Virus record (IMG/VR): IMGVR_UViG_3300035698_017630
Coordinates: 1-58,577 of that record
Direction: 5' to 3' (one strand)
DNA from: a virus
DNA: 58,577 nt
Shown: in pieces, positions 7,531 to 51,783 of the stretch
How positions within the stretch are numbered: the stretch's first letter is position 1
Layout of the letters: each line of letters opens with the position of its first letter
Program-made: the position numbers and the translations under genes
Notes under the pieces: model-generated
The model's database searches: none
What the model saw: the letters and a program-made list of their open reading frames with translations, nothing else
Told to the model about the DNA's origin: nothing

Positions 7531-8256
7531 ATGAAATTTAAAGATGAAATATCCGAGTATATAGAAATATTGTACCAAACGGATATGAAAAGGTATGGAA
7601 AATTTTATAAAAAATATTTACCGATTAAGAAACATAGGCTTGATCAGCAAACTCATAGACTCACCGATGAAGAATGGTTTGAAATATACAAATCCGAAAA
7701 AATTCATAAAAAGTTAAAAAAATTAAAACGAAAGAAAATTAAATTGAAATATTTTTTACTTATATTAAAACATAAATGGTTTGTTTTTATTGCTGGATTA
7801 AAAATAAAAGCACCCATTTGGAGATTGATAACTCATGATTTATCCAAGTTTTCTCCAAAAGAATTTCCTTATTACAACAACCGTTTTTTTGGAGATGAAA
7901 AAGCATGTGATGAGTTTGAAAAGGCAGCATGGGATCATCATAAAGAAAATAATGATCATCATTTGGAATCGTGGATTCTGACACCCCACCGCTTTGCGGG
8001 TAAAAGTTATAAACCAAAAACACGCGAAATGTCAAATGGTGCAGTGTTGGAAATGATTGCAGATTGGATTGCCGGGAGCCGTATGTATGAAGGAGAGTGG
8101 CCGTATGATTATTGGCCATGGTTAGATGAAAAATTACCAAATATATTATCAACAGTACATCCATCCACAAGTAAAAAAATACTGGAAATCTTAAAAGTAA
8201 ATAACTTGATGACTTTATATATGAGAACATATATTAAAACAATGGAGAAAAAATAA
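7531..8256 (+). CDS. DUF5662-like protein
   Basis: 241 residues. A Lys-rich, probably helical N-terminal part (1-85) precedes the conserved block at about 97-185: THDLSKFSPKEFPYY, then AAWDHHKENNDHHLESW, then VLEMIADWIAG. This His/Asp-rich pattern is characteristic of the phage-borne DUF5662 family, whose His/Asp residues look able to bind metal (HD-like), although no activity is known to me. The long basic N-terminal extension may be particular to this phage. It sits two genes upstream of the ligase; a nucleic-acid role is only a guess. Confidence 0.75.
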   Translation: MKFKDEISEYIEILYQTDMKRYGKFYKKYLPIKKHRLDQQTHRLTDEEWFEIYKSEKIHKKLKKLKRKKIKLKYFLLILKHKWFVFIAGLKIKAPIWRLITHDLSKFSPKEFPYYNNRFFGDEKACDEFEKAAWDHHKENNDHHLESWILTPHRFAGKSYKPKTREMSNGAVLEMIADWIAGSRMYEGEWPYDYWPWLDEKLPNILSTVHPSTSKKILEILKVNNLMTLYMRTYIKTMEKK

Positions 8257-8257
8257 A

Positions 8258-10625
<2,368 letters not shown>

Positions 10626-15747: not shown

Positions 15748-18252
15748 TTATCTCAATTCAATTGTTATACTGCTTGTATCAAAATAAACAAGTTGTGGAG
15801 AATAAACCAACAAATCGGATCGTTCAAAATCTGCATTAATATCATATGAAAAGAAAATATCATGTGTTGGATTTTGTATTTCACAATGAGATACGCCACT
15901 AATTTCTTGAACAACTCTAATTATTTCAGATTGATAAATTGATATATCATAACCAAATCTTGACATAAAATGATCTACAAGAGCATCTTTTATCATATCA
16001 ACCAAAACTTGAGAATTATAACTAATCGCATCATCTTTCCATACTACAATTTTTATTTCAAATGGAATGGTATTTGTATCCATTCTAACCATAACCTTGC
16101 CATTATATATTAATTTAATTGCCTCGTCCGTTATATAAATTATATCATTTGTTTTCAAATACTCATATACGTATTTTGTATTTGAAAGATCATATGATGC
16201 TATAAATGGAGAAGTAAGATCCCATGGGTTTACATCTGAAGTTACCAAATATCTTCTTCCTGAAACAGGAGGTGAAGGTAATGCCTCGGGAATTTGTCGA
16301 GTATATGCCGCAGTCTTTGTAACTGGATTATAATTCATATTAGTCAACATACCGGTCGTATTAGAGAATTTCAAATTTACAAAATCGGTAAGCATTTTAT
16401 ATTGCATAATATCAAAAGAAACAATTTTCTGTAAAACATTTAAGGTAAAATCATTACTTTCAACCAAATCATAATAATCTTTCTTTATTGTAGGAACATC
16501 ATACACTACTGCAAGCAAAGATGTTCCAACAGTTGAAGTCTTTACTTGGCTATACATGAATTCACTCAAATCACGTTTGATAACAATTTCTGCTTGAGAA
16601 TCTACATAAAAATGAGTTGCGTCTTGTCTCATACTAAAATTAAAAGTTTGATCATCATCTGGGATATCACTTAATAACATATCATATGTAAAATATTTAC
16701 CAACATAATTATGAGTCATTGTGTATAATGTAGTATCGAATGATGAAGAAACAACCGCCTGCATTGACGAATAATCTCCAGTTTGTACTTGTTGATAGTA
16801 TAAATAAATACGCACATAATCCGTAACCGAGGACCCCGTAGAAACAACATTAAAATTCGAATAGGTTGGAAGAACTTCGGTAATTGTTGTATACGTTCTT
16901 AGTATTGTGAGCGCAACATTTGTATCTTTGATAACATAATAATAATTTGATTCTTTAACCAACACATCAACATCTATATCAAACAAACTATAATAATCTT
17001 CTCCATCTATTGTTATTGTATCATTTGCATGAATTTGATAATTCGCACTGCTATCCAAACTCCAAACCGCATTTCTAGTTGGGACTACAACATTTTCAAA
17101 TATCATATCTGTAAAAAGGGCAATTTCACTATTTTTAATATCTGATTGTTTAAGTACATAAGTTGAATGTTGTACGGGTAAATCATCAACTATACTATCT
17201 ATATTTTGATAATCCCATTCACTAACAATTCTTTTTGAAGCGGAAACATTTAACATTGCACCCGATCTAATTTCATTGAGAGAGGGGAAATCAAGTCCAC
17301 CGGTTGCGGGGGAAGTGTTTATTACATCTAACTTTATTGGTTTAAGTACGGGTGTTCCAGATCCATCATCACTCTGACTAAATAAACGAGCAGCCGAGGT
17401 TATCGATCCAGAAATAACATTACCATCAAATCCTGAAGTTGTTCCAATATCAACAGTAATAATATCTCCAGACTTTGGTTGTTTTCCAATTACATCATTT
17501 CCAAAAAATAATTGTATCCCATTTTCTTTTGCTCTATATGTATACCCCGGTGATTTAGCTGGAATTAAAAATAAAGAATCGTAATTTTTCCAAAGCGTAC
17601 CATTTATTGATACATCCAAACTTGACAAACTTCCTTCGAATTCACAATTGACATTATAAAATTCATATGGATTTAGAGTTGGGACTGTATATTCGAGTGG
17701 GACTATAGTTTCCTGTGTTGCTTCAGCCACAAAGAAAATATAACTTTTATCACTGTTATATTGAAATGGTAAAATTCTCGTTCCACCCTCATCCAATATT
17801 TCGGTTGTGGTTACGACAATTGAAGCCGTACCTGGATTTAAAATTGTAATTTGAATTTCGTTGTTTTGTTCAAAAATTACATCATTCGCTGAATATTTAA
17901 AATGTTGAGGTAACGCGATGGTTGTATCATCTGTAAAGCCCAAAGGTAATGATACCAATATACTAACAACGGATGGTGTAGCAAGATCTGGATTATATCC
18001 AAGCATAGATGACCAATTTAAAATTGATTCTTTTTCTATTGCTTTTGTTAAAAAAAATTCTCTATAAACTGAACTAGAATAATAAACTAAATTCGACGTA
18101 AGTGCGGAAAATATATTAATCAAATAAGACAAGTATGAAGTTTTGGATAAATCTATATTGTCTAATTCTAAATATGTTTCCATATACTCAATGATTTGAT
18201 TTCGAATTTTATCCCTATCCGAAAAAATGGTTACTGGATTACTCTCAAACAT
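15748..18252 (-). CDS. Baseplate wedge protein, T4 gp6-like
   Basis: 834 residues (T4 gp6 is 660). The N-terminal part (RDKIRNQIIEYMETYLEL to SILNWSSMLGYNPDLATPS) and the region with GIQLFFGNDVIGKQPKSGD, plus the later VSHCEIQNP near the C-terminus, match the gp6/baseplate-J class. These proteins form the wedge ring that transmits the contraction signal. The middle carries extra beta-rich sequence (about 330-600) beyond the T4 protein. It is transcribed with the gp25-like and gp26-like genes upstream. GGAG lies 12 bases before ATG 18252. Confidence 0.8.
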   Translation of the reverse strand: MFESNPVTIFSDRDKIRNQIIEYMETYLELDNIDLSKTSYLSYLINIFSALTSNLVYYSSSVYREFFLTKAIEKESILNWSSMLGYNPDLATPSVVSILVSLPLGFTDDTTIALPQHFKYSANDVIFEQNNEIQITILNPGTASIVVTTTEILDEGGTRILPFQYNSDKSYIFFVAEATQETIVPLEYTVPTLNPYEFYNVNCEFEGSLSSLDVSINGTLWKNYDSLFLIPAKSPGYTYRAKENGIQLFFGNDVIGKQPKSGDIITVDIGTTSGFDGNVISGSITSAARLFSQSDDGSGTPVLKPIKLDVINTSPATGGLDFPSLNEIRSGAMLNVSASKRIVSEWDYQNIDSIVDDLPVQHSTYVLKQSDIKNSEIALFTDMIFENVVVPTRNAVWSLDSSANYQIHANDTITIDGEDYYSLFDIDVDVLVKESNYYYVIKDTNVALTILRTYTTITEVLPTYSNFNVVSTGSSVTDYVRIYLYYQQVQTGDYSSMQAVVSSSFDTTLYTMTHNYVGKYFTYDMLLSDIPDDDQTFNFSMRQDATHFYVDSQAEIVIKRDLSEFMYSQVKTSTVGTSLLAVVYDVPTIKKDYYDLVESNDFTLNVLQKIVSFDIMQYKMLTDFVNLKFSNTTGMLTNMNYNPVTKTAAYTRQIPEALPSPPVSGRRYLVTSDVNPWDLTSPFIASYDLSNTKYVYEYLKTNDIIYITDEAIKLIYNGKVMVRMDTNTIPFEIKIVVWKDDAISYNSQVLVDMIKDALVDHFMSRFGYDISIYQSEIIRVVQEISGVSHCEIQNPTHDIFFSYDINADFERSDLLVYSPQLVYFDTSSITIELR

Positions 18253-18360: not shown

Positions 18361-19278
18361 TTAAGAATTTCTTTGTCTTTCTTTAAGATTATTAACTCTG
18401 GTTTGTAATGTTGAGACGTAATTATCAAGTTGTGTTTTGCACTTATCGGTTTGACATTTTGACTTTTTCGAACTGACCGTAGAAATTGCTTTGGTAAGTG
18501 CCGCAATCTGACAATCGATTTTTGGGGCACCTCTCTTGAACATACATTTCTTTGCTTCGATTGTAAGAATTTTACGAATTGCATATATAAGAGCCATAGT
18601 ACCAACTACTGCGCCTGCAGTTTTTTTCTTTCCAAATTTAGTAATTGTATCTTTGGATGTACGATAAGCGGCTTTGCTTGCGGTAGCAGTTGCTTGACTT
18701 GCCCCGGCAGCGGCTTTCTTAATACCCCGCCCAGTTGCACCCGCGGCTTTTCCTGCGGCTTTCTTAATACCCCGCCCAGTTGCACCCGCAACGTTTTTAG
18801 TTCCGACCGCGGCTTTTCCTGCGGCTTTCTTAATACCACGCCCAGTTGCACCCGCAACGTTTTTAGTTCCGACCGCGGCTTTCTTAATACCACGCCGAGT
18901 TGCACCCACGGCTTTTTTAGTTGCGACTGAAACTTGACCTCTTTTTTTTCTAAGAGCATCCCTACCTTTTTCTAGATTCTTTTTTGTTTCAGCATCAACT
19001 TCTTGCAATATTTCGCCACCCACGGCATCCATAGTCATTTCATAAATAATATCGTCAATCCAATCAACCATTTCTTCATCACTCTCATCAAGCTCAAAAT
19101 CCTCACCTGCTAAATCTCCATCTCCATCTCCATCTCCATCTCCATCTACTCCGGGGCTCGCGTCCGACTTATCAATATCGAGAGGACTATTGTCCGGCTC
19201 AAAATCTTCACCCGCAAGATAAACATCATCGGTATCTTCAATATCACCTTCGAGAAAACGCTGTATATATGATTTCAT
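18361..19278 (-). CDS. Histone-H1-like repeat protein with acidic N-terminus
   Basis: 305 residues in four parts. First, a leader MKSYIQRFLEGD that resembles the T4 capsid-targeting sequence (MKTYQEF). Second, an acidic region (20-75) with a DGDGDGDGD run. Third, a Lys/Ala/Gly repeat region (about 110-215) built from GATGRGIKKAAGKAA and VGTKNVA units, like histone-H1-type bacterial proteins. Fourth, a hydrophobic segment (AGAVVGTMALIYAI) and a four-Cys helical tail. The basic repeats should bind or condense DNA. Position among virion genes plus the leader suggest an internal head protein. No enzyme motif. The repeats are also visible as DNA repeats at 18700-18910. Confidence 0.6.
   Translation of the reverse strand: MKSYIQRFLEGDIEDTDDVYLAGEDFEPDNSPLDIDKSDASPGVDGDGDGDGDGDLAGEDFELDESDEEMVDWIDDIIYEMTMDAVGGEILQEVDAETKKNLEKGRDALRKKRGQVSVATKKAVGATRRGIKKAAVGTKNVAGATGRGIKKAAGKAAVGTKNVAGATGRGIKKAAGKAAGATGRGIKKAAAGASQATATASKAAYRTSKDTITKFGKKKTAGAVVGTMALIYAIRKILTIEAKKCMFKRGAPKIDCQIAALTKAISTVSSKKSKCQTDKCKTQLDNYVSTLQTRVNNLKERQRNS
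18700..18910. repeat. Tandem DNA repeats coding for the H1-like units
   Basis: Units such as GCGGCTTTCTTAATACC and CGCCCAGTTGCACCCGC recur three to four times at near identity. The spacing alternates between shorter and longer units. This array is prone to slippage and length change. Confidence 0.75.
19107..19146. repeat. Hexanucleotide repeat coding for acidic DG run
   Basis: The unit ATCTCC repeats about six times. On the coding strand it gives alternating Asp and Gly. It is a simple-sequence tract likely to vary in length between isolates. Confidence 0.75.
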
Positions 19279-19384
19279 AACTTATAAACTCCTTTTAAAT
19301 TAATTTATTATTCGATATGCATACAACAATAAATAAAATATTTCATTGTTTCATATTTGAAGTGCTCCTTATTATAAGTTGTTT

Positions 19385-19754
19385 TTATTTGGATTGGTTT
19401 AATATCAGATTTGGATTTCCAAGAATTCTTCCTGTATTTTCTTCTACTTGAACAGCACGATCATCGAAAATTAAAATACAAGAAAATGTTTTTATATTAG
19501 TTATTTCTAAAATTGGTAAATTGTTATCAGATAGCCATTGTTTAATAGTTGGAATATGTTCAAGTACAGATGCTCTTGTAGTAAAGATTTTGCATATAAA
19601 ACCTCTTGATAAATAATAACGAAGTAAAACAATCATTTTTTCAATTGGTTTGCCTATTTTGGATATATCTCCATTTGAGTGATATTCTGCCAAAGTTCCA
19701 TCCAAATCAAATCCAAGGAGAGGATGGATGATTAAGAGTACTTTTTATCTCCAT
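19385..19754 (-). CDS. HAD-superfamily hydrolase with a frameshift at its 5' end
   Basis: The main frame encodes FDLDGTLAEYHSNGD (HAD motif I, DxDGT), then ICKIFTTRAS (motif II threonine) and ILIFDDRAVQV (acidic motif), about 110 residues. That is typical of small phage HAD phosphatases. The only canonical ATG giving a full N-terminus is at 19754 (MEIK), but its frame is off by one at the A5 run (19742-19746). With four A it would read MEIKVLLIIHPLLGFDLDGT. Starting at the in-frame TTG 19705 would delete the catalytic first Asp. So either an indel or recoding is involved. Substrate unknown; small phosphoesters or nucleotides are typical of the superfamily. Confidence 0.65.
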
Positions 19755-19776
19755 TGTTTTTTCTTTTAAAATATTA

Positions 19777-19962
19777 TCAATCAACATGACCACCTGCCGC
19801 CAAAATTCGATAACCACGAAGATACTTATAAGAGATAGTAGAAGCAATTCCAAGTCTACCATCTTTTCCGGAAGCTTTCCATTGTTCGTCCATACCAAAC
19901 GCCCCATTGTATTGGGGTATATCTAGTTCATCGACATTTCTAATGTCGGGGGACCGAGGCAT
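19777..19962 (-). CDS. Small hypothetical protein, 61 aa
   Basis: ATG 19962 with a strong AAGGAG 8 bases upstream, which picks this frame over an overlapping longer one. Sequence MPRSPDIRNVDELDIPQYN, then GKDGRLGIASTISYKYLRG and ending in GGHVD. Looks compact and soluble. It lies between the pyrophosphatase-domain gene and the HAD gene. Function unknown. Confidence 0.6.
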   Translation of the reverse strand: MPRSPDIRNVDELDIPQYNGAFGMDEQWKASGKDGRLGIASTISYKYLRGYRILAAGGHVD

Positions 19963-19998
19963 AATCTTCTCCTTTTTACAATCAAATATTACTTTTAC

Positions 19999-20535
19999 TT
20001 ATTTGTCCAAAATAATATTAAATATATTTTTTTCTAAATTTTCTTTAATAAACCCAATAATTGGTTTTTTAATATTATGATTTTTAATCCAATCTTTGAA
20101 TTGTTCTATTGTAACCGAAATAATGGAATCATATCTATCCCATCCTTTTTCATAATTTTTTAAATACATACGTTCTGCTTGATCTTTTGTATCTGCTCCT
20201 AGTATAACTTTATGTTCATCAAACTCCCCTTTCTTATTTGTTTGATTAACAACAAATATAATTTCTGATTTTTTATTTGGACCCATAAATATATCAAGTT
20301 GATCGCCATCTATTGCTTTTGTTCCACAGATATAACCATAATCATAATATATTTTTTGTCTCCACTTAATACCATCCCCATCGGTCCCAGAACGATAAGA
20401 ATTTGCCGGATTCTCAATACTTATATTTAAACCATTCCAAGTAATATGTTTCATTTTATAGTTACCTGCTTTTTTCTGGACATCAGTGGGTTCATCTTCT
20501 TGTAACATTCCAAGATAAAACTCATATAATTTCAT
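19999..20535 (-). CDS. Inorganic-pyrophosphatase-like domain of polyvalent proteins
   Basis: 178 residues. After a leader (MKLYEFYLGMLQEDEPTD), residues about 35-165 match the pyrophosphatase-like domain found in phage and plasmid polyvalent proteins. Matching blocks are ISIENPANSYRSGTDGDG, YGYICGTKAIDGDQLDIFMG, FVVNQTNKKGEFDEHKVILG and YLKNYEKGWDRY, then IEQFKDWIKN. In polyvalent proteins such domains are thought to enter the host with the DNA. Here it is a stand-alone gene in the virion block. Its leader has LQE, a possible T4-type prohead protease site (LxE). Activity on pyrophosphate is inferred from the family only. Confidence 0.75.
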   Translation of the reverse strand: MKLYEFYLGMLQEDEPTDVQKKAGNYKMKHITWNGLNISIENPANSYRSGTDGDGIKWRQKIYYDYGYICGTKAIDGDQLDIFMGPNKKSEIIFVVNQTNKKGEFDEHKVILGADTKDQAERMYLKNYEKGWDRYDSIISVTIEQFKDWIKNHNIKKPIIGFIKENLEKNIFNIILDK

Positions 20536-20551
20536 ATTATAATTGTTCCCA

Positions 20552-21241
20552 TTATCGTCTTGCTAAAGTTTTTGCAAAATTAGAAAAAGAAAAAACCAAA
20601 ATGTTATACACAAACCACAAGGAACGAACATCGACTTCCTGTTTTAGTTTTGAGTTCATTATATCTTTTTCCTTGCCTTTTTGAACAGAAGAAATATATG
20701 ATTGAAAATCAAAATCAATCTCAAAACTATCTTCTTTCTTACGAACTGAAATAAATTTCTTTGAAGGATAAACCAACGAATTTATAAAAACAATAGATAC
20801 GAGTTTGGCTAGAAGCCCCGGCAAACTTAACATCTTCTTCATTATAAAAGTCGTAAGTCTCTCTATATACGAATCGACAAACATCAAAAAAAAATCCGAA
20901 ATATCTTCGTTGTTCATATCTTTTATTGAAGATAGATGTTTGATGATATACGAATTAAAACAAGATACCATAGAATTTGAAACTATAGAAACAATTTTTT
21001 TGGAATCAATATCTGATATAGATTTAATTGTATCCGAAATAAAAATGGGATTTCTCGTCATTGTTTTCTTTATGTATTTTCCCGTATATTCATCAATAAT
21101 AAATTTATGAATTCCAAATTTGTTTAATCTTCTTTCAGATTTAGATTTCCAAAATTTTAGTTTATCAAACCCATAATTTATTAATTTTCTTGTAATACCA
21201 ACTATTTTTGCTCCCGTCAAATATTTCTCTGAAATATACAT
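20552..21241 (-). CDS. Hypothetical protein with YI-type leader, 229 aa
   Basis: Begins MYISEKYLTGAKIVG, similar in style to the leaders of the 18361 and 21909 genes. The rest is basic and helical, with a hydrophobic segment (about 140-165, LPGLLAKLVSIVFINSLVY) and a second one near the C-terminus (LWFVYNILVFSFSNF). Its start overlaps the previous gene's stop. No known domain. Candidate internal or membrane-active virion protein, by context. Confidence 0.6.
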   Translation of the reverse strand: MYISEKYLTGAKIVGITRKLINYGFDKLKFWKSKSERRLNKFGIHKFIIDEYTGKYIKKTMTRNPIFISDTIKSISDIDSKKIVSIVSNSMVSCFNSYIIKHLSSIKDMNNEDISDFFLMFVDSYIERLTTFIMKKMLSLPGLLAKLVSIVFINSLVYPSKKFISVRKKEDSFEIDFDFQSYISSVQKGKEKDIMNSKLKQEVDVRSLWFVYNILVFSFSNFAKTLARR

Positions 21242-21906
21242 TATATGCTCGTTTTCTGTATATACAAACCCAATGGATTTGTCATTTCATAAAATTTAGA
21301 ATCCAATGTTTCGTTTTTTTGTTGTAGATTTAACAAGATCGCTGCTGTTCTTATATCATGTATTTGTTTTGTAAATTCCAAAAACATAAACCTATCTGAA
21401 ATTTGTTGTTCTAAATCAAGTAATGTACTAGATGAAACTTTAAGTGATAACTTGTATAAATTTATATCTCCATATGTAGCCAACTCTGTATTTCTCACAA
21501 CAAAAATTGGTTTAAAATCAATTGTTTCCATCATAAAATCTTGACTGAAATGAATAATATCATACTCGTTTGGTTTCAACCCATATGTCGTGGGAAAACT
21601 TATAGATCCAAACTCCGCATCTTTTAAAGTTAAACCTTTTTCATCTCCGTTATAAACAGGTTGAATACTTTCTACATTATAGGCGGGTAACATTTGTATT
21701 TTTTTAAAACGAAAACCGGACAAGGCACCAATGCCATATTTCTCGTATGACCCCGCCATTAGCTTTTTATCATAATGATCTTTCGTATAATCCCAATCAA
21801 TGGAATAATATGTAACTGGAAACGCAGGATATAATTTGGAGTATAAATTATATGCCGTATTGTAATAATCTGCAATATAATTATATTTTCTTATCCAGGG
21901 TTGCAT
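21241..21906 (-). CDS. Hypothetical virion-associated protein, 221 aa
   Basis: Rich in Tyr and aromatic residues (WIRKYNYIADYYNTAYNLYSK at the start), with a beta-rich middle and a C-terminal helix (LEQQISDRFMFLEFTKQIHDI). Unlike its neighbours it has no leader and no hydrophobic segment. It looks like a structural tail or connector protein but I recognise no family. It is tightly packed between the peptidase-like gene and the 229-aa gene. Confidence 0.6.
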   Translation of the reverse strand: MQPWIRKYNYIADYYNTAYNLYSKLYPAFPVTYYSIDWDYTKDHYDKKLMAGSYEKYGIGALSGFRFKKIQMLPAYNVESIQPVYNGDEKGLTLKDAEFGSISFPTTYGLKPNEYDIIHFSQDFMMETIDFKPIFVVRNTELATYGDINLYKLSLKVSSSTLLDLEQQISDRFMFLEFTKQIHDIRTAAILLNLQQKNETLDSKFYEMTNPLGLYIQKTSI

Positions 21907-21908
21907 TA

Positions 21909-22739
21909 TTATCCTTCTGTAGTTTTTGATAGTTTTTGAAATAATTTAGAAAGAAATCCAAATTTTTTAGTTTTGACTGCATTGACAACTATGGGGGAAT
22001 TTAATATTCGATCAATTCTAACTTCAGTAGATGCTTTTTTGGGTATTTTTTTCTCATATTTTGCAATTATTCGTCGGCATTGATCTGCGTTATCCGAGTA
22101 CAAACATATTTGTCTATGTAACCAATTATCAACTTTATTTAGCGAGGACGCTAACTCTTTCCCATATCCAAGTTTGGAAGCATAAGAATCTGCAACATAG
22201 TCATACTTGTATGTTTTGGGAGAATGAATAACACCAATTCCAATCACTCCAAGCATAGTAACTATAAATTTGGAGTTCTGATTATATTTATCATTAAACA
22301 CATAAGAAATAATAAATGATACAATAGCCGCTTTTATAATTGAAACTAGGTTCTTATTTCTATTTACTTTTTGTACTGATTTATTAAGATAATGACCCCA
22401 AACACTAACAATAACTGAAATCAACTCTTTTTCATTTAGTATGTTTCGTAACCCAGTCGAATAGTATAAATCCTTTTGTCCCCAAGTTGTAGAGTTTGGT
22501 ATTTTAGAATCAACACTATATATCATTACTTCGTCATTTGAAACAATATCTCTTATTTTTTTAGTAAGTTCGTTATCAATAACCGCATGTTTTTTTTGTT
22601 CAAAATTGAGTTTGGATGATTTAGATAGGAAAGCAAACAAACCAGCGAGAATTGGAAGTATCCAAACAAATTTAGATATGGCATCATTGGAGTTTTGTTT
22701 TTGCTCCATCAAAAATTGTTCACTTATATACCTTTTCAT
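21909..22739 (-). CDS. Inactive M48-type metallopeptidase paralog
   Basis: 276 residues, clearly related to the next gene (22743): KELISV...GH, YVADSYASKLGYGKEL, and the shared tail IVVNAVKTKKFGFLSKLF. The zinc motif is lost. Where the partner has HEYSH, this protein has SVWGH (residues 112-116), and the partner's third-ligand Glu is Lys (K178). Hydrophobic segments near 24-40 and 133-148 suggest membrane association. It begins with MKRYISEQFLME, a leader of the type shared in this cluster, including LME as a possible prohead protease site. Probably a pseudo-enzyme acting as partner or regulator. Spacing to its paralog is 3 bases. Confidence 0.7.
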   Translation of the reverse strand: MKRYISEQFLMEQKQNSNDAISKFVWILPILAGLFAFLSKSSKLNFEQKKHAVIDNELTKKIRDIVSNDEVMIYSVDSKIPNSTTWGQKDLYYSTGLRNILNEKELISVIVSVWGHYLNKSVQKVNRNKNLVSIIKAAIVSFIISYVFNDKYNQNSKFIVTMLGVIGIGVIHSPKTYKYDYVADSYASKLGYGKELASSLNKVDNWLHRQICLYSDNADQCRRIIAKYEKKIPKKASTEVRIDRILNSPIVVNAVKTKKFGFLSKLFQKLSKTTEG

Positions 22740-22742
22740 TTA

Positions 22743-23711
22743 TTAGGATTTCCCAATTTTAGATTTTATTTTATTTTTAATATCTCCAAATAAGTCTGAA
22801 AGGAATCCAAATTTTTTAGCTTTGGCTGCATTGACAACAGTCGGTGTATTTAATAACTTCTCAATTCTTTTGTTTACTTCTGGATTTGTTTTTTCATGTT
22901 TCTTTATTAAGAGAACGCATTCTTTTTTATTTTTTCCAAAACATATTTGATCATATACTTCATTTTCAAGTTTGTTTAACGCAGATATTAATTCCTTTCC
23001 ATATCCCTTTTTGGCAGCATAAGAATCTGCAACATAATCTCTTTCAAAATTTTTTGATTTCATTGCATATTTATAAATAATTCCACCAATAGAAGTCGAT
23101 ACGGCAAGAGCAATACTAGATTTATATAATATTTTGTTTTTGAAAAGTTGAAGTCTTCTGACTAAAAATAAAACAAAGGCTGCGCTCATTATAGTAAATA
23201 TAGATTTTTCTCTACTTTTTTTAGAGGAAGTTTTATTGGCAACATGACTATATTCGTGAAGAAGAACTGCAATCAATTCCTTTTTCGTAAAAAGATGTTG
23301 TAATTTAGTTGTATAAAAAAAATTATTATCTCCATAATTAATTACATTTAACTTATCTGAATCAAATTTCCAAATTATAACATTTTCATTTTTGGTAGCA
23401 TTTCGTATAATATTTGTTAAATTCAAATCCTTAGTAGAATTATGATATAAATTTTCATCTTTATTTATGTCATCTTCATCCTTGGATAATATATGAATCA
23501 ATAAATGAATAGCCATAAATGCATAATACAAAGGTATTAAAATTCGATCTTTATTAGATTTAGTTTTTAATGAATAATCAAAATCTAAGTTCCCATCTTC
23601 ACTTTTAGTACCACCAAAAAATGAAAGTAAACTATCCGACACATCCATTTCATTAAGAAGATTATCGCTCAACACATTCGTTATATATCGCTTTGATAAT
23701 TTATTTTTCAC
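22743..23711 (-). CDS. M48-type (HtpX/Ste24-like) zinc metallopeptidase
   Basis: 322 residues. HEYSH at 152-156 supplies two zinc His and the catalytic Glu. ERDYVADSYAAKKGYG (from E223) matches the downstream E...AD motif carrying the third ligand in M48 enzymes. Hydrophobic segments near 57-75, 170-185 and 198-215 suggest a membrane protein, as for HtpX. The N-terminus (SKRYITNVLSDNLLNE) resembles the leaders of neighbouring genes. M48 peptidases degrade or process membrane proteins. A phage copy in a virion block could act on the host envelope at entry, but this is inference. Its inactive paralog follows directly. Confidence 0.8.
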   Translation of the reverse strand: MKNKLSKRYITNVLSDNLLNEMDVSDSLLSFFGGTKSEDGNLDFDYSLKTKSNKDRILIPLYYAFMAIHLLIHILSKDEDDINKDENLYHNSTKDLNLTNIIRNATKNENVIIWKFDSDKLNVINYGDNNFFYTTKLQHLFTKKELIAVLLHEYSHVANKTSSKKSREKSIFTIMSAAFVLFLVRRLQLFKNKILYKSSIALAVSTSIGGIIYKYAMKSKNFERDYVADSYAAKKGYGKELISALNKLENEVYDQICFGKNKKECVLLIKKHEKTNPEVNKRIEKLLNTPTVVNAAKAKKFGFLSDLFGDIKNKIKSKIGKS

Positions 23712-23726
23712 TTTATAATCTCCGAA

Positions 23727-24155
23727 TTATGATGTACTTGTATTTAATAGGGATTCGTCAATTGGAATACTTACTTTTTTAGTTTCGCTTTGATAGTTTA
23801 TTTCTATGTTTATAACAAAACCACGACGGCTCCCAGATAAAAATTTGGCATCATATGTTATATTCCCACGACTCTCATATCTGCTCAATGAAATTGCTAT
23901 TTCTTGCAATATGGTTTCTTTCGTTATATCGTCGTTGGGATCAAATACAAACTTATATAAATCACACCCATAATCAGGATCAAATATATAAGTACCTCTT
24001 GCGGTCAATAATAAATTCATAACACTACGAACGATGGCGTTCACACCGAGAAGTTTTCTAAAATCACCTCGTTGTGAAAAACTATCACCCATATCCTTGA
24101 TTTCGTTTCTTTTACCAGAAACATCATATAAAAAATTACCCATTCCATCTGACAT
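23727..24155 (-). CDS. Baseplate wedge protein, T4 gp25-like
   Basis: 142 residues (T4 gp25 is 132). Typical family elements: the polar start, FRKLLGVNAIVRSVMNLLLTARGTYIFDPDYGCDLYKFVFD (here split for reading: NAIVRSVMNLLLT and GTYIFDPDYGCDLYKF), an amphipathic helix ISLSRYES, and a C-terminal strand INIEINY. gp25 family proteins join the wedge to the first sheath ring. The nearby gp6-like and gp26-like genes agree. Confidence 0.85.
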   Translation of the reverse strand: MSDGMGNFLYDVSGKRNEIKDMGDSFSQRGDFRKLLGVNAIVRSVMNLLLTARGTYIFDPDYGCDLYKFVFDPNDDITKETILQEIAISLSRYESRGNITYDAKFLSGSRRGFVINIEINYQSETKKVSIPIDESLLNTSTS

Positions 24156-43119: not shown

Positions 43120-43271
43120 AAACCCGAGATAATTTATAATATTGAAAACTCTTTATTGAACTTATCTATAATGGAAACAATTGATGTTATATCTTGGGGT
43201 AACAGGAATGTGTTTTAATTCAAGAAACAAACCTTTTGTTTTAAAATACTCAAATAAAAAGGATGATTAAT

Positions 43272-44096
43272 TTGAAACCAACAATTTGGAAAATAGTCGG
43301 AGATAACGAAAAAACACTTGCATACGATAAGAAAAAGAATATCCTAAACATTTATCCAGGTGATAGGTACATACTTGGAACTTTAATAGCAATGGGATAT
43401 ACTAATAAAGAATTGAAAAAAATCAAGTGGAGATATAAACTAAAAGCTGGTGTTTGTTTTCTCAAATATTGCAAGCGGGGGAGTGAAGTAAGACTTGAAC
43501 TAGATCACTGCAAATTGGAAAATAAAAAAATACAAAGTTTTAGTTTTGATTATAACAAGATCAAAATCATAGAATGGGATAGAGCCCTTCTTTTATCGGA
43601 ACGACTTGCAGATTATGTATTTGTTCCGGGGAGCGATTTTAACAACATATTTGAACCTTTTAAATCAAAACCAATATCCAGAATACGATTGGGTGCTAAT
43701 TGGGTTCTACATGATATGAAAGGGGATATTAGTCATCCCTTACCCGATGATTCTGGTAATTTTGTAGAAATGTTTGATGAGGATTCAAAAATACTCCATA
43801 CGCAATTTCAATCGGCTAAAACTATAATACATGATTTGAACGCTTTAGGGTGGTGGGATGAATTAGAAGAAGTTGAATGGGAATACGTCCTTTCTTCTAT
43901 GACTGTACAGTTAGAATATTCAAAGGGTGGTCTCGTATTCAAAAAACGAGATATACCTCATCTATGTAAAACAAATGAAGTTATTACGTATACAGAAGAA
44001 ATCACAATTGAAAAAATTGAGAAAGATGATATTAATTCAAATACAGAAAAAGTGAAACTCTCAATATGCGATCACCCAAATCCAGAAAAGAGTTAA
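43272..44096 (+). CDS. 'GYT' module protein, two modules
   Basis: About 274 residues. TTG 43272 is preferred (AAGGAT 6-7 bases upstream) because the N-terminus then aligns with its paralogs (KPTIWKIVGDN beside KKQIYQIVGDK). Module 1: IVGDN...LIAMGYTNKELKKIKWRYK, VCFLKYC. Module 2: WVLHDMKG...IIHDLNALGWWDELEEVEWEY, with a following VQLEYSKGG. Each module has an Asp-turn start, a GYT.(E/Q)L helix, an I.W strand and an LEY strand. Family function unknown. Confidence 0.65.
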   Translation: MKPTIWKIVGDNEKTLAYDKKKNILNIYPGDRYILGTLIAMGYTNKELKKIKWRYKLKAGVCFLKYCKRGSEVRLELDHCKLENKKIQSFSFDYNKIKIIEWDRALLLSERLADYVFVPGSDFNNIFEPFKSKPISRIRLGANWVLHDMKGDISHPLPDDSGNFVEMFDEDSKILHTQFQSAKTIIHDLNALGWWDELEEVEWEYVLSSMTVQLEYSKGGLVFKKRDIPHLCKTNEVITYTEEITIEKIEKDDINSNTEKVKLSICDHPNPEKS

Positions 44097-44097
44097 A

Positions 44098-44595
44098 ATG
44101 AGAAAACAAATTCATACGGTTCGGTTTTGTAATAAAGGGACAATTCGAAACGAAAAAATTGAATATGATCAATCATTAATAGATGGACAATCGGTTGCGT
44201 TTGATAGCTTTATGAACCCTATTCAGTTAAATGTCATTTCTAAAGATAAACCAATTGAGTGTTTAAAATCTCTAGGTTATACAGATGAAGAATTGGAAAA
44301 AATTGAATGGAAATTTGAAATAAATTCGGACACTTTAATTCTTGAATATCGACAAGGTCGACTTGAACTCACAGACTGTAAATTGAATAAAAACCATACA
44401 TATAAAATAGATAAATCTAAAATTTTACAAAATGATTTTTTATGTATTATAGAAATCAATGGACCTCTTTGGGATAATTTGCTTATTAAAGATGAAGATT
44501 TTAACAATCAAGCAAAACCGTTCCTAACATCAGAAGATCAATACGAATTGATAGTACCCGCTATATTAGTTCGACTCCAAAAACATTCAAAATAA
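44098..44595 (+). CDS. 'GYT' module protein, one full module plus remnant
   Basis: 165 residues. QIHTVRFCNKG start, LKSLGYTDEELEKIEWKFE, LILEYRQGRLELTDCKL. The block RQGRLELTDCKL is nearly identical to RQDRLELTDCKL in the next gene, also at DNA level (44346-44390 against 44817-44861), so the duplication is recent. The second half is shortened and ends with IVPAILVRLQKHSK. Confidence 0.65.
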   Translation: MRKQIHTVRFCNKGTIRNEKIEYDQSLIDGQSVAFDSFMNPIQLNVISKDKPIECLKSLGYTDEELEKIEWKFEINSDTLILEYRQGRLELTDCKLNKNHTYKIDKSKILQNDFLCIIEINGPLWDNLLIKDEDFNNQAKPFLTSEDQYELIVPAILVRLQKHSK

Positions 44596-44620
44596 TTTAA
44601 AACTCAGAAAAGAGTAAACA

Positions 44621-45442
44621 ATGAAAAAACAAATTTATCAAATTGTTGGTGATAAAGAACAAACAAACGCGAGCGACATTTGTGGAAACCCAATAAAAAT
44701 CACGTCCAATGGGGGAGACATAATTGATAATTTAAAAAAAATGGGTTATACCAATGCTGAGTTAAAAGAAATTAATTGGAGATTGGAAATTGAATCATGC
44801 ACTTTATATTTTGAATATCGACAAGATCGACTTGAACTCACAGACTGTAAATTGGATAAAGACAACTCTTACAAAATTAATCGTTATGAAGTGCTTGAAA
44901 TTGTAAAACGAGATGATTTCATGGTGTCGCCTGATAAGGTTAGTGATTCTTTTCTTACTCAAGATAGTAATTATACTTGTCAATTTAAATCATTTCCCCT
45001 TACCAAAATATACAAAGTTTGCTTGGGAAGTACTCAGGATAGCACATCTCAACATATCGGCGAAAAATGGACTTGTATGGATAGAGTGTATGTGTACGAT
45101 GAGGAGATGAAACTTATGAATTTGAATATTAAACATATAAAAGATGTAATAAAAGAGTTAAAGAATTTGGGGTACACTGATGCACAATTAGCAATAATTA
45201 ACTGGGAATATTTTCTGGAGCATGGTAACGCAACTCTTACATATGTTTTCGATGAACTTGGTACTCTCAATAATAACATGGGTGGGCTTAAATTCAAAAA
45301 CATAAGAATTGATGAGGGATATACGATTACTCAGTATGTCGAAGAAATAGAAATCAAAAATATCAATGATGTTGAAATGGAAGATCATAAATATTTTCCT
45401 TCTGAAAAATTAAAATTGGTTATTAATAACCCAGACTTTTAA
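44621..45442 (+). CDS. 'GYT' module protein, two modules
   Basis: 273 residues. Module 1: QIYQIVGDKEQ, LKKMGYTNAELKEINWRLE, LYFEYRQDRLELTDCKL. Module 2: YVYDEEMKLMNLNI, LKNLGYTDAQLAIINWEYF, ATLTYVF. Both modules keep all pattern positions. The closing block (EIEIKNINDVEMEDHK) resembles that of the 43272 protein. Confidence 0.65.
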   Translation: MKKQIYQIVGDKEQTNASDICGNPIKITSNGGDIIDNLKKMGYTNAELKEINWRLEIESCTLYFEYRQDRLELTDCKLDKDNSYKINRYEVLEIVKRDDFMVSPDKVSDSFLTQDSNYTCQFKSFPLTKIYKVCLGSTQDSTSQHIGEKWTCMDRVYVYDEEMKLMNLNIKHIKDVIKELKNLGYTDAQLAIINWEYFLEHGNATLTYVFDELGTLNNNMGGLKFKNIRIDEGYTITQYVEEIEIKNINDVEMEDHKYFPSEKLKLVINNPDF

Positions 45443-45460
45443 AAGATTCGAGATATTCAA

Positions 45461-45925
45461 ATGGCAACACAAATTCATAAAATTATTTTTAGTTTAGACA
45501 AAGCAATCGTATTAGATACAAGTGGTCTTGTAAGAACTCTCCAAATGGGAATATACTCGGATATAGTTGAGTTTTTAAAAATGAATAATTACACAGAAGA
45601 GGATTTGAAGAAAATTAAATGGGAATTTAAAATAGGAAACGATATATTAATTTTAGACTATATCGATGGTGATTTTAAATTCAGAAATAAAAAAGTCAAA
45701 ACTGAAATTTATAAAATCGTTTGTGCCATAGATAAAGTTTCAATATTTGCACCAGATGGAAATTATATAAATTGGGAAATTTCCGATCATCATACAATAA
45801 TCAAATTGTTACAGAATAAATTGTACACCGAAGAAGAAATAAAAAATATCATATGGAATCTACAAATTGGAAATCGTTGGTTTGATCTTGAATATAAGGA
45901 TGGAGAACTTCAACTTAAAGATTAA
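45461..45925 (+). CDS. 'GYT' module protein, two short modules
   Basis: 154 residues. Module 1: IHKIIFSLDKAIVLDTSG, FLKMNNYTEEDLKKIKWEFK, LILDYIDGDF. Module 2: IYKIVCAIDKVSIFAPDG, LLQNKLYTEEEIKNIIWNLQ, WFDLEYKDGEL. Gly of GYT is replaced (NNYT, KLYT), which makes this the most divergent two-module member. Confidence 0.6.
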   Translation: MATQIHKIIFSLDKAIVLDTSGLVRTLQMGIYSDIVEFLKMNNYTEEDLKKIKWEFKIGNDILILDYIDGDFKFRNKKVKTEIYKIVCAIDKVSIFAPDGNYINWEISDHHTIIKLLQNKLYTEEEIKNIIWNLQIGNRWFDLEYKDGELQLKD

Positions 45926-45942
45926 AAGGGAAAATTTTAAAA

Positions 45943-46203
45943 ATGAACAAACAATCAGACGAACAACAAACTAAGTATCTCTATACTACCGTAAATAATA
46001 TTACAAAAGAACAAGCGAAATTAATAACAATTGGTGTACATGAAATTGTTGGAACTACTGCGATTTTCGAAGAATCCTCAAATGGTTATAGTTTTTACGA
46101 AGGAGATGATCGGGGGGTTTGTATACCATTGCGCTATGTAACAACTTCTTTTATTAATGGAGCCGTTTTCATCCTAAAAAATAAAAAGGAAATAAATAAA
46201 TAA
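45943..46203 (+). CDS. Hypothetical protein, 86 aa
   Basis: ATG 45943 after AAGGGAAA. Not a GYT module. Contains NNITKEQAKLITIGVHEIVG and YEGDDRGVCIPLRYVTTSF. Mixed alpha/beta. It interrupts the GYT gene array. Family unknown. Confidence 0.55.
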   Translation: MNKQSDEQQTKYLYTTVNNITKEQAKLITIGVHEIVGTTAIFEESSNGYSFYEGDDRGVCIPLRYVTTSFINGAVFILKNKKEINK

Positions 46204-46204
46204 A

Positions 46205-46954
46205 TTGAAACCCAAGATCTATAAAGTAATCGCTACATACAATGGAACAGTCGCGTATGATCAAAATAGAAATATCATTAATTTAAATATTTTTCCTCAA
46301 GACAATGTAATACGTGGTTTGAAATCAATTGGTTATAGCGAGAAGGAATTGAAAAACATTATTTGGAACTTCGAGATAAATTCTGGAACGATATTTCTTG
46401 AATATTGGAACGGGAAACTCAGATTTAAAAAATGGGAACTATGGAAACTAGACAGTAAGGCCGCATATAAAGTTGTTCATCATGAAAGTCTTCAGATTTC
46501 AGAATATAAAACTTGGACTTCTCTTGGTTACAAAAATACAAAAATAAAAGATGAATTCATAGTTCCAGATGCTGACTACATCAATATATTAAAACCATTT
46601 GTATATTCCAAACCGAAAAAAATTTACAAAATTATTATGGGAACGGAAAGAATTATATATGATGAGGATATGAATCCCATGGATATACCATTTCTGAATA
46701 GTGATGATATAATAAAATTGTTGAAATCGCGCGGATATACGAACGAAGAGTTAGAAACCGTTTTTTGGGAACTTAAATTGGAATATGGTGTTGTATATCT
46801 TGATTATTTTAAGAATTATCTCAGAATTGAAAAATGGAAGTTAGACAAAAATTATAAAGCTTCGTGCTCACAGATATTCGATATAACCAAAATTAATGAT
46901 GATGGTATTCCCGTAACCATCGAAAATATAGTATTGAACACCATGGATGAATAA
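46205..46954 (+). CDS. 'GYT' module protein, two modules, TTG start
   Basis: 249 residues. TTG 46205 follows AAGGAAATAAATAAA, and the N-terminus aligns with paralogs (KPKIYKVIATYNG). Module 1: LKSIGYSEKELKNIIWNFE, IFLEYWNGKL. Module 2: IIYDEDMNPMDIPF, LKSRGYTNEELETVFWELK, VYLDYFKNYL. Last gene of the + block, followed by a strong terminator. Confidence 0.65.
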   Translation: MKPKIYKVIATYNGTVAYDQNRNIINLNIFPQDNVIRGLKSIGYSEKELKNIIWNFEINSGTIFLEYWNGKLRFKKWELWKLDSKAAYKVVHHESLQISEYKTWTSLGYKNTKIKDEFIVPDADYINILKPFVYSKPKKIYKIIMGTERIIYDEDMNPMDIPFLNSDDIIKLLKSRGYTNEELETVFWELKLEYGVVYLDYFKNYLRIEKWKLDKNYKASCSQIFDITKINDDGIPVTIENIVLNTMDE

Positions 46955-50379: not shown

Positions 50380-50856
50380 TCATCTTATTTGAGGATTACA
50401 AATAACAACCTCAATATTTTTATCCAAACAATCCAAATATAATTCCATATAATATAAAACGGTAGTCCACTTTAATCCTCCCAAACCACATCCCAATGCA
50501 GGAATTCCAATTGATAGAATATCAAGTTCAACCACATTCTTTCTTATTGATACAAGTAAGTTTCTTATATAAACTAACGTACTTTTTTCTCTCCAATGAT
50601 TCTTTGTTGCACAGTTAAATATATAATGTGGAAATTGCACAAATTCATTATTTGATTGATAACGTTTACATATAAATATTTCACCTGGGAGAAGTTTCTT
50701 ATTGAGACAATATAATTTATACTGTTCAAAATTATCAGGGTATTTGTTTTTAAATTCAAGAGCCAAACCTTTTCCACTCACCCCAATACAATTTACAGGA
50801 TTAACAATTGCCTGAACATTTATATTCATAATACTACTATTTGTATAGTAAATCAT
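50380..50856 (-). CDS. DarG-like macrodomain protein
   Basis: 158 residues, essentially one macrodomain. AIVNPVNCIGVSGKGLALEF (16-35) is the ADP-ribose loop. YPDNFEQYKLYCLNKKLLPG, NCATKNHWREKS (81-92) and IPALGCGLGGLKW (118-130) are the marks of the DarG-type subgroup. These remove ADP-ribose that DarT toxins add to thymidine in DNA. GGAG lies 14 bases before ATG 50856. There is no DarT neighbour. DarTG is an anti-phage system, so a phage copy would be expected to protect phage DNA from it; that role is inferred. An RNA- or protein-directed ADP-ribose hydrolase is the alternative. Confidence 0.8.
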   Translation of the reverse strand: MIYYTNSSIMNINVQAIVNPVNCIGVSGKGLALEFKNKYPDNFEQYKLYCLNKKLLPGEIFICKRYQSNNEFVQFPHYIFNCATKNHWREKSTLVYIRNLLVSIRKNVVELDILSIGIPALGCGLGGLKWTTVLYYMELYLDCLDKNIEVVICNPQIR

Positions 50857-50884
50857 TTTTTATTCAATGTCTCCTATATTCAAC

Positions 50885-50926
50885 GATCTGGTTAATAACT
50901 GTGTGTGTACATGTAATAACCAGATC
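50885..50926 (-). other. Hairpin in the leader of the macrodomain gene
   Basis: GATCTGGTTA / TAACCAGATC, a perfect 10-bp stem with a 22-base loop, 28 bases upstream of the macrodomain start. No T-run. May mark mRNA processing or control of this gene. The rest of 50927-51039 holds no gene I can support. Confidence 0.4.
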
Positions 50927-51039
50927 ATCGAAGTTTGACTATGGTCTGTATTGTTATATCAAGTATGACTTACTTTTAGTTACAATCACCCATGACAGTT
51001 CGAATATCCTTAGTTTTAATCATCCCTGGCTTGTCAAAT

Positions 51040-51783
51040 TCAAGAACAAATAAAATCTTCAAGTTCTTCCTTCCTCACCTTTTTACTTTTCTTTTTCTTA
51101 CAAATCATATTGTTTTCACGTCTTAACTTAGCATTCTTTTTCTTTAAATCAACATTGCTAATTTGTAGTTTATAAAATTTCAAAACTTCTGTAATAACCC
51201 CAATATCAAATCGAGAAAGACGTTTGGTCAAATATTCATTTTGCGTTTCCAGTTTTGCGTTTGCAGATGTCAAATTTTCATTTTCGATTTTTAATTTAAA
51301 ATTGTTTTTACGTAATTCTTCTAATTCTTTTTTTGTATCATTATGCAACCATTCGCTCAAACCTTCATTAATAGGCGGAAAAATTTGTTTGGCTCTTGGT
51401 TGTAACTCATCCAGAAAATCGCATACGAGTTGTCGCTGTACAACAGGCATCAAACCATCGAAACAATCCGCTTTAAATTTCTGTGAATCATCCCATTTAA
51501 GAGATTGAATTCCCGACAATTGTTCGGATAATACCAATTCGCAATTAGAAAATTCAATATCTTTATATAATTGAGTCGGACAAATCACCGTAGTTTGAAA
51601 ATCGTCACTAACAATTAAAAATTCATATAATTGTACAGTCTGAACAATCCCTCTTTCAATTATCATTAATGTTTCATCATCTCTACTTACTTCAATTCGA
51701 TAAGGATTTTCTTCAAAATAATCAACAATCTCTTCGTATTGATCGTCGGATCCTGTCCACATCGTATACTCGTATTTTTTCAT
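51040..51783 (-). CDS. Coiled-coil protein, 247 aa
   Basis: ATG 51783. N-terminal beta-rich half (residues 1-95: MIIERGIVQTVQLYEFLIVS), then a helical half with a long coiled coil (about 145-190: LKIENENLTSANAKLETQNE). Basic C-terminus (KKKKSKKVRKEELEDF). Position 30-50 shows GSDDQYEEIVDYF near the start. Function unknown. It is the second gene of the minus block when read from the promoter at 52.2 kb. Confidence 0.6.
   Translation of the reverse strand: MKKYEYTMWTGSDDQYEEIVDYFEENPYRIEVSRDDETLMIIERGIVQTVQLYEFLIVSDDFQTTVICPTQLYKDIEFSNCELVLSEQLSGIQSLKWDDSQKFKADCFDGLMPVVQRQLVCDFLDELQPRAKQIFPPINEGLSEWLHNDTKKELEELRKNNFKLKIENENLTSANAKLETQNEYLTKRLSRFDIGVITEVLKFYKLQISNVDLKKKNAKLRRENNMICKKKKSKKVRKEELEDFICS

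Follow-up and report, generated by a model that had tools for sequence, protein, structure and literature searches.

Why do the baseplate genes of a giant phage enclose a run of additional genes, and do the short N-terminal leaders in this run address its products to the phage head? The question arises from the 58.6-kb IMG/VR virus record IMGVR_UViG_3300035698_017630 (58,577 nucleotides; this whole stretch is called the window below), a giant-phage fragment carrying a contractile-tail module with tape measure, sheath, tube-like, gp25-like, gp6-like and hub proteins. Between the gp25-like and the gp6-like gene lies a run, entirely on the minus strand, that encodes an M48 metallopeptidase and its degenerate twin, the proteins U221 and U229, a pyrophosphatase, a HAD-type phosphatase and an H1-like protein (Table 1). 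An initial annotation had proposed that five of these proteins share a T4-like leader, are packaged into the head and are delivered with the DNA. We found that a common leader opens unrelated proteins of the window and its relatives, that it differs from the T4 sequence and that it probably directs its carriers to the head.

A common leader in the window and its relatives

A sheath alignment search, of which the best 80 of 122 IMG/VR loci were considered, gave three relatives with 56-61% sheath identity, G001 (9.8 kb), G002 (236 kb) and G003 (30.7 kb), whose tail genes match those of the window. Moreover, a degenerate DNA pattern for MYISExYxxE matched seven IMG/VR stretches on four contigs, namely G002, G003 and the giant contigs G016 (201 kb) and G017 (183 kb), and all seven matches open a frame of 107-271 codons. 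The major capsid protein (MCP) of G016 is 69% identical to that of G002; for G018 the MCP identity is 53%. Since G016 and G017 have identical leader proteins, they are not independent genomes in this respect and the duplicates were removed from the counts. The leader follows the consensus M(x0-2)[YF][IV]SEx[YF][ILV]xE and is an acidic peptide of 10-13 residues. In its strict form it opens 25 proteins from 22 families (defined by phmmer comparison of the bodies) in the window and four relatives, so that the search for the same leader in further genes, as suggested by the initial annotation, was successful. Inside the gp25-gp6 locus of G003 the leaders read MYISETYIEE, MYISESFIEE, MYTSEQYLNE and MYISGLYLCE, and those of G002 include MYISEKYLEE, MYISEKYVKE and MMKYVSEEYIEE.

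The leader is confined to the N-terminus. We counted the motif [YF][IVLT][ST][EQ]x[YFL][ILVT] starting at residues 2-10 and took its rate inside the same proteins as the expectation. It occurred at 11 N-termini in the 519 proteins of the window and G001-G003 (0.05 expected) and at 13 in the 364 proteins of G016/G017 (0.09 expected), compared with none in 169 proteins from twelve other sheath relatives and none in 258 proteins from stretches of T4, Melnitz, S-CAM3, phiKZ, SPN3US and Rb1. Two tests were fairer than this count: a scoring matrix from which the window was excluded, and a search of cellular genomes with the DNA pattern. Across 257 billion bases of bacterial and archaeal sequence the MYISExYxxE pattern gave 20 matches in 20 contigs, one of which opens a frame of at least 60 codons (L215, 127 amino acids, ribosome site not clear). 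The matrix built from the relatives alone scored U229 and the twin far above each of 347 background starts, whose maximum was 6.5 (scores in Table 1).

Within the window the five proposed leaders are not equal. Among 92 genes called, 90 N-termini were compared; two dubious open reading frames (ORFs) of the HAD region were dropped, and the start of the twin, overlooked by the simple gene caller, was set by hand to 22739. The leaders of U229 and the twin scored 29 as a pair, a value reached by only 0.4% of 3570 background pairs, and were the sole standout. The leaders of the homologous M48 protein and twin were matched by 2.8% of the background pairs and the remaining pairs by 1.8% to 41%. The mean of four independent leaders (M48 omitted as a homolog) was matched by 1.2% of random four-gene sets and was outscored by certain other groups of window genes. 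On the window data alone, the caution of the initial annotation that the likeness might be chance was fair. Together with the relatives-only matrix, the sequences make the leaders of U229 and the twin certain. The M48 leader is borderline and is aided by homology, as its G002 homolog 204187 begins MYISEKYVKE. For the H1-like protein and the pyrophosphatase the matrix gave no support, and their leaders are not demonstrable from sequence alone.

The proposed likeness to T4 MKTYQEF itself was not supported. The N-termini of T4 ipII and ipIII read MKTYQEFIAEA, consensus and spacing of the lineage leader differ from this, and the leader does not match the T4 form MK[TS][YF]xEF. By the matrix T4 ipIII scored 3.4 and ipI -6.5, compared with 10-31 for most strict leaders. 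A first consensus guess, MKxYIxxFLxE, was rejected: its 32 IMG/VR stretches were mostly chance, internal or very short frames, which indicates that the actual consensus does not have the T4-like form. Among these stretches, L014:288-1757 on a 48.7-kb contig encodes 489 amino acids after MKEYIEDFLVEND with 95 open codons upstream and is a suspected capsid protein.

Proteins carrying the leader

The leader stands before enzymes as well as small basic proteins. It opens an M48 protein (G002 204187, PF01435 7.5e-15; homologous to the window twin), a PrsW-like protein (G002 222114, 9.5e-5, slightly under the Pfam cut-off) with two related G016 proteins, an InPase protein (G016 93834, 2.5e-47; leader MNMFISEDFIDDK) and an SNF2 helicase (G017 130646, 1.9e-16). 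Under the cut-off were an EF-Tu domain-2-like protein (G002 200491, 7.6e-6) and a weak C92 amidase match (G017 120277, 1e-3). The leader helicase of G017 (130646-132610, L176) is 54% identical to a leaderless helicase of G002 (202206-204173, L138), with residue 23 of the G017 protein being the first to align. As the homology starts only after the leader, the leader is a module, and judging from this pair the address was gained or lost. The bodies behind the leader are basic, with a median of +5.4 charges per 100 residues against 0.0 in other proteins (23 vs 764 proteins, p 1.4e-6).

The domain calls of the initial annotation for the window proteins hold. The pyrophosphatase covers the whole InPase domain (173.5 bits, profile positions 2-135 of 135). 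The M48 protein has the motif HEYSH and an Asp at the third-ligand position, where G002 204187 has Glu. The Pfam cut-off for Peptidase_M48 was passed by the window protein, G002 204187 and G002 190150, and missed by the twin, in which the HE of HExxH is gone. M48 relatives were found in one of 15 records searched, G002, which has two copies and likewise a pair with one degenerate member (HEYGH, and HEYGE in 190150). For the M48 protein a four-sequence profile matched Ste24p in the PDB (E 1.6e-4), and the M48 protein and the twin had no match among annotated phages. IMG/VR searches with single window proteins (gp6-like, M48/twin, pyrophosphatase, sheath) gave nothing, or five pyrophosphatase-domain loci; in two of these, where the frame is visible, the domains lie within frames of more than 5,000 codons.

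A gp21-type protease and its possible cleavage sites

A gp21-like protease had been named as a check in the initial annotation, and the outcome was positive for the leader-bearing G016 and G017 and negative for the window and G002. T4 gp21 as a query matched G016 at 50530-51246 and the G017 copy. The G016 protein belongs to Pfam PF03420 (E 2.4e-10, 40.7 bits against a cut-off of 27), and S77 proteases were also found in G018 (8.4e-8) and G019 (1.7e-29). His70, Ser129 and Asp161 are invariant between the relatives' protease and gp21 of T4 and Melnitz; they would be the catalytic residues, going by the H-S-D order that an excerpt of PMC5694885 gives for SPN3US gp245 aligned to gp21. With SPN3US gp245 itself as a phmmer query no homolog was found in these contigs, and the G016 protease as a query had no match in G002.

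According to the same excerpt, T4 gp21 cuts Alt at ITE and LTE (PMC5694885). A gp21-like [ILVF]xE site ends 18 of the 25 leaders, in one of two registers; as the motif already fixed an aliphatic residue or Thr at P3, the free evidence is the Glu alone. This Glu is present at core position 9 in 13 of 23 leaders, compared with 6.4% in proteins. For six of the 25, the DNA pattern used in IMG/VR itself required Glu, and the site is kept in 12 of the 19 others. In the window the twin's leader has the aliphatic-x-Glu end, whereas that of U229 does not. The MCPs of G002, G016 and G018 begin MKHLL[QN]EAY, which is also a possible cleavage site.

The H1-like protein of the window has ILQE at residues 90-93, near the boundary between its acidic and basic parts, and its C-terminus resembles the leader protein G016 35493 (blastp E 5e-5). 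A large, leaderless, acidic-then-basic protein, G016 75177, is related to G016 35493 (1e-10), G002 89116 (4e-21) and G018 7854 (4e-6; basic in its last third only), and weakly to the H1-like C-terminus (E 0.014). With these features, the H1-like protein would fit an internal head protein that loses its acidic part. Candidate head core proteins that are leaderless, large and acidic-then-basic are encoded at L162:15177-16463, L132:9116-10642 and, mildly so, G018 7854-9077 (L204-L203 region). G016 75177 has a leader gene on each side.

The gp25-gp6 locus

In two Kyanoviridae records the gp25 and gp6 wedge genes adjoin each other; therefore, the run between them in the window is extra. In G016, gp25 (89369) is followed by a 795-aa gene, a leader gene (93156), the pyrophosphatase with its leader (93834), U221 (94377) and gp6 (95054). 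G003 has a HAD gene and four leader genes between gp6 and U221-gp25, a single endonuclease-like gene separates U221 from gp6 in G002, and gp25, U221 and gp6 are contiguous in G018, where the site is empty. These filled, near-empty and empty versions identify the site as a shared hotspot. The pyrophosphatase and HAD genes of the window have homologs at this site in relatives, yet their own N-termini lack the canonical leader.

Table 1. Genes and leaders of the gp25-gp6 locus in the window. Matrix scores are those of the relatives-only matrix; percentages give the level among background starts.
Feature	Position	Strand	Evidence
gp25-like baseplate wedge protein, locus edge	23727..24155	-	PF04965 8.2e-10; homologs in G002, G003, G016, G018
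M48 membrane metallopeptidase, GTG start	22743..23711	-	PF01435 E 8.6e-8; homologs in G002
Borderline leader of M48 protein, MKNKLSKRYITNVLSDNLLNE	23649..23711	-	Matrix score -0.6, 1.2% of background
Degenerate M48 twin, HExxH lost	21909..22739	-	37% identity to 22743-23711
Secure leader of twin, MKRYISEQFLME	22704..22739	-	Matrix score 15.9; 0/347 background starts as high
U221, conserved locus protein, no family, no leader	21241..21906	-	Homologs in G002, G003, G016, G018, G010, G011
U229, basic, leader-bearing, no family	20552..21241	-	No PHROG/Pfam match; no homolog among relatives then compared
Secure leader of U229, MYISEKYLTG, no final Glu	21212..21241	-	Matrix score 16.1; no xE site
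Stand-alone polyvalent-type inorganic pyrophosphatase	19999..20535	-	PF18823 2.5e-51; homolog G016 93834
Unproven leader of pyrophosphatase, MKLYEFYLGMLQE	20497..20535	-	Matrix score -10.1, 32% of background
HAD-type phosphatase ORF, start not clear, no leader	19385..19705	-	phrog_1238 3.5e-8; G003 homolog E 7e-20, same locus
H1-like protein	18361..19278	-	Acidic first third (net -31), then basic; Lys/Ala repeats, hydrophobic helix, four-Cys C-terminus
Unproven leader of H1-like protein, MKSYIQRFLEGD	19243..19278	-	Matrix score -10.2, 32% of background
gp6-like baseplate wedge protein, other locus edge	15748..18252	-	phrog_219 1.6e-23; homologs in G002, G003, G010, G016, G018

The ORFs were present where the initial annotation had placed them, and the HAD hydrolase, based on its PHROG match and the homolog at the same locus of G003, belongs to the run as well, in a frame without a good start. 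In the HAD region (19385-19907) a short upstream ORF in another frame, ending at 19707, could hold this start; the G003 homolog has a normal start, MGKTIAVDLDSTLAEY. Besides, a 61-codon ORF at 19777-19962 has a ribosome-site-like sequence upstream and no homolog among the relatives compared.

Other genes of the window were noted in passing. An endonuclease-like family (by eye; 52379-54442) is expanded, with 23 matches in the compared contigs, 12 of them in G002; it also occurs in G003, G016, G017 and small relatives, and several copies adjoin structural genes. Just past the tail genes, the plus-strand gene at 25901-26677 matches phrog_1281 (E 5.5e-39) and phrog_10390 (3.2e-34), families without an assigned function. 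A run of related proteins with IYKIV-type N-termini at 43263-46954 comprises paralogs by the look of the N-terminus comparison, and 50380-50856 encodes, by eye, a macro-domain protein (IVNPVN...GKGLALEFKNKYP).

Discussion

We consider it likely that the cassette is one locus of a lineage-wide cargo set whose short leader targets the head, with docking, gp21-type cleavage and co-delivery with the DNA. A T4-like targeting function is supported by the presence of the leader on unrelated proteins, the gp21-type protease, the [ILVF]xE end, the basic bodies, and the InPase and SNF2 helicase among the cargo. The initial proposal that the leader works like the T4 capsid targeting sequence has thus gained strong support from the relatives, while its five equal leaders and its MKTYQEF form have not stood. 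Most likely the leader would dock the cargo on the prohead core during head assembly, as in T4; in most of the cargo, namely the proteins with an xE site, the gp21-type protease would then cut after the final Glu; and the mature, basic products would remain associated with the DNA and accompany it into the host. The cargo would comprise the pyrophosphatase, the SNF2 helicase, M48 and PrsW-like membrane proteases and small basic proteins.

Other explanations have to be weighed against head targeting. The leader could be a docking tag for a destination other than the head, be it the tail tube, the baseplate or a compartment built by the phage, for example a phage nucleus. In favour of this, baseplate genes surround the cassette site in the window, G003 and G016, and the window sheath is nearest by bits to that of phiR1-37, a nucleus-forming phage. 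Nevertheless, we regard such a tag as unlikely, because leader genes of G002, G016 and G017 also occur far from baseplate genes, the sheath, tube, terminase, UvsX-like, ribonucleotide reductase and clamp-loader-like proteins of G002 have no leader, and both the xE end and the S77 protease agree with a head destination. An import signal for a phage nucleus in particular is disfavoured by the leaderless replication proteins, no search for nucleus genes having been made. It is still less probable that the leader serves translation initiation or protein stability in this lineage and does not target its carriers at all. That it opens many small accessory genes would suit this, but the serine codons of the leader vary (TCA, TCT, TCG, AGT), and such synonymous variation at fixed residues shows that the peptide itself is conserved; moreover, many neighbouring late genes are leaderless, and most leaders end in an xE site. 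Finally, that the similarity in the window is only chance plus the homology of the M48 protein and the twin appears very improbable. This reading is refuted for U229 and the twin, since U229 is unrelated to the M48 pair in sequence comparison and both leaders stand out in the relatives-only matrix; it stands for the H1-like protein and the pyrophosphatase, whose leaders are no higher than background.

Several observations weigh against head targeting. PF03420 (S77, T4 gp21) had no match in the window, in G002 and G003, or in five smaller records; the records without an S77 match were all called linear and may be fragments. Seven of the 25 leaders, that of U229 included, have no xE site. The positional motif was formulated once part of the set had been seen. 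The MCP and the presumed RNA polymerase beta' genes (the latter named by eye) have no leader. Moreover, a simple hydropathy scan found a membrane-type helix in 12 of 33 leader or leader-like proteins compared with 20% of 694 genes, a frequency that is unusual for head cargo.

Similar arrangements are known from T-even phages. T4 Ip1-3 share only the N-terminal leader that directs packaging, and they inhibit GmrSD restriction enzymes (excerpts of PMC12373910 and PMC3012670). As described there for IPI-III and Alt (PMC12373910, PMC3012670), the present system has unrelated accessory proteins with a common leader of 10-13 residues, here ending in aliphatic-x-Glu in 18 of 25 cases, an S77 protease (here in some of the relatives), basic bodies and variable cargo loci. 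However, consensus and spacing are YISExYLxE here and YQEFIAE in T4, the cargo is larger, enzymatic and includes membrane proteases, and its site adjoins baseplate genes. The inner-body and ejection proteins of phiKZ and SPN3US likewise belong to giant phages, which, according to parts of PMC5694885 and PMC10052503, package many proteins with removable N-termini, as we infer for the present cargo. They use, as far as these parts go, an S80 protease, mostly long propeptides and A/S/G-x-E cuts, in contrast to the short leaders, mostly with aliphatic-x-Glu ends, and the S77 protease of the relatives described here. Polyvalent proteins (Iyer et al. 2017, PMC5512222, in part) also include InPase PF18823, and their effector sets contain helicase and metallopeptidase domains as well. 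In that case a single large protein unites the domains and the peptidase is a polyvalent zincin, whereas here separate small proteins have a common leader and the peptidase is M48. Among the matches listed for open-access literature on capsid targeting, giant-phage internal proteins or phage M48/PrsW, this leader is not described, which does not prove its novelty.

More tentatively, we propose an uncultured giant T4-superfamily lineage with its own modular head-address leader, unlike that of T4, on more than 20 unrelated proteins, in which M48 membrane peptidases with their degenerate twins, PrsW-like intramembrane proteases, pyrophosphatase and SNF2 helicase might, at entry, remodel the membrane and the nucleotide pools of the host and shield the incoming DNA. 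If head targeting is true, leader-based capsid addressing, best known from T4, would exist in another lineage with another code, and the head contents would be open to testing by N-terminal peptide mapping. By means of a short leader, the sequence would reveal which proteins a whole giant-phage lineage injects, and those of unknown fold among them would be good candidates for anti-defence or host-takeover factors.

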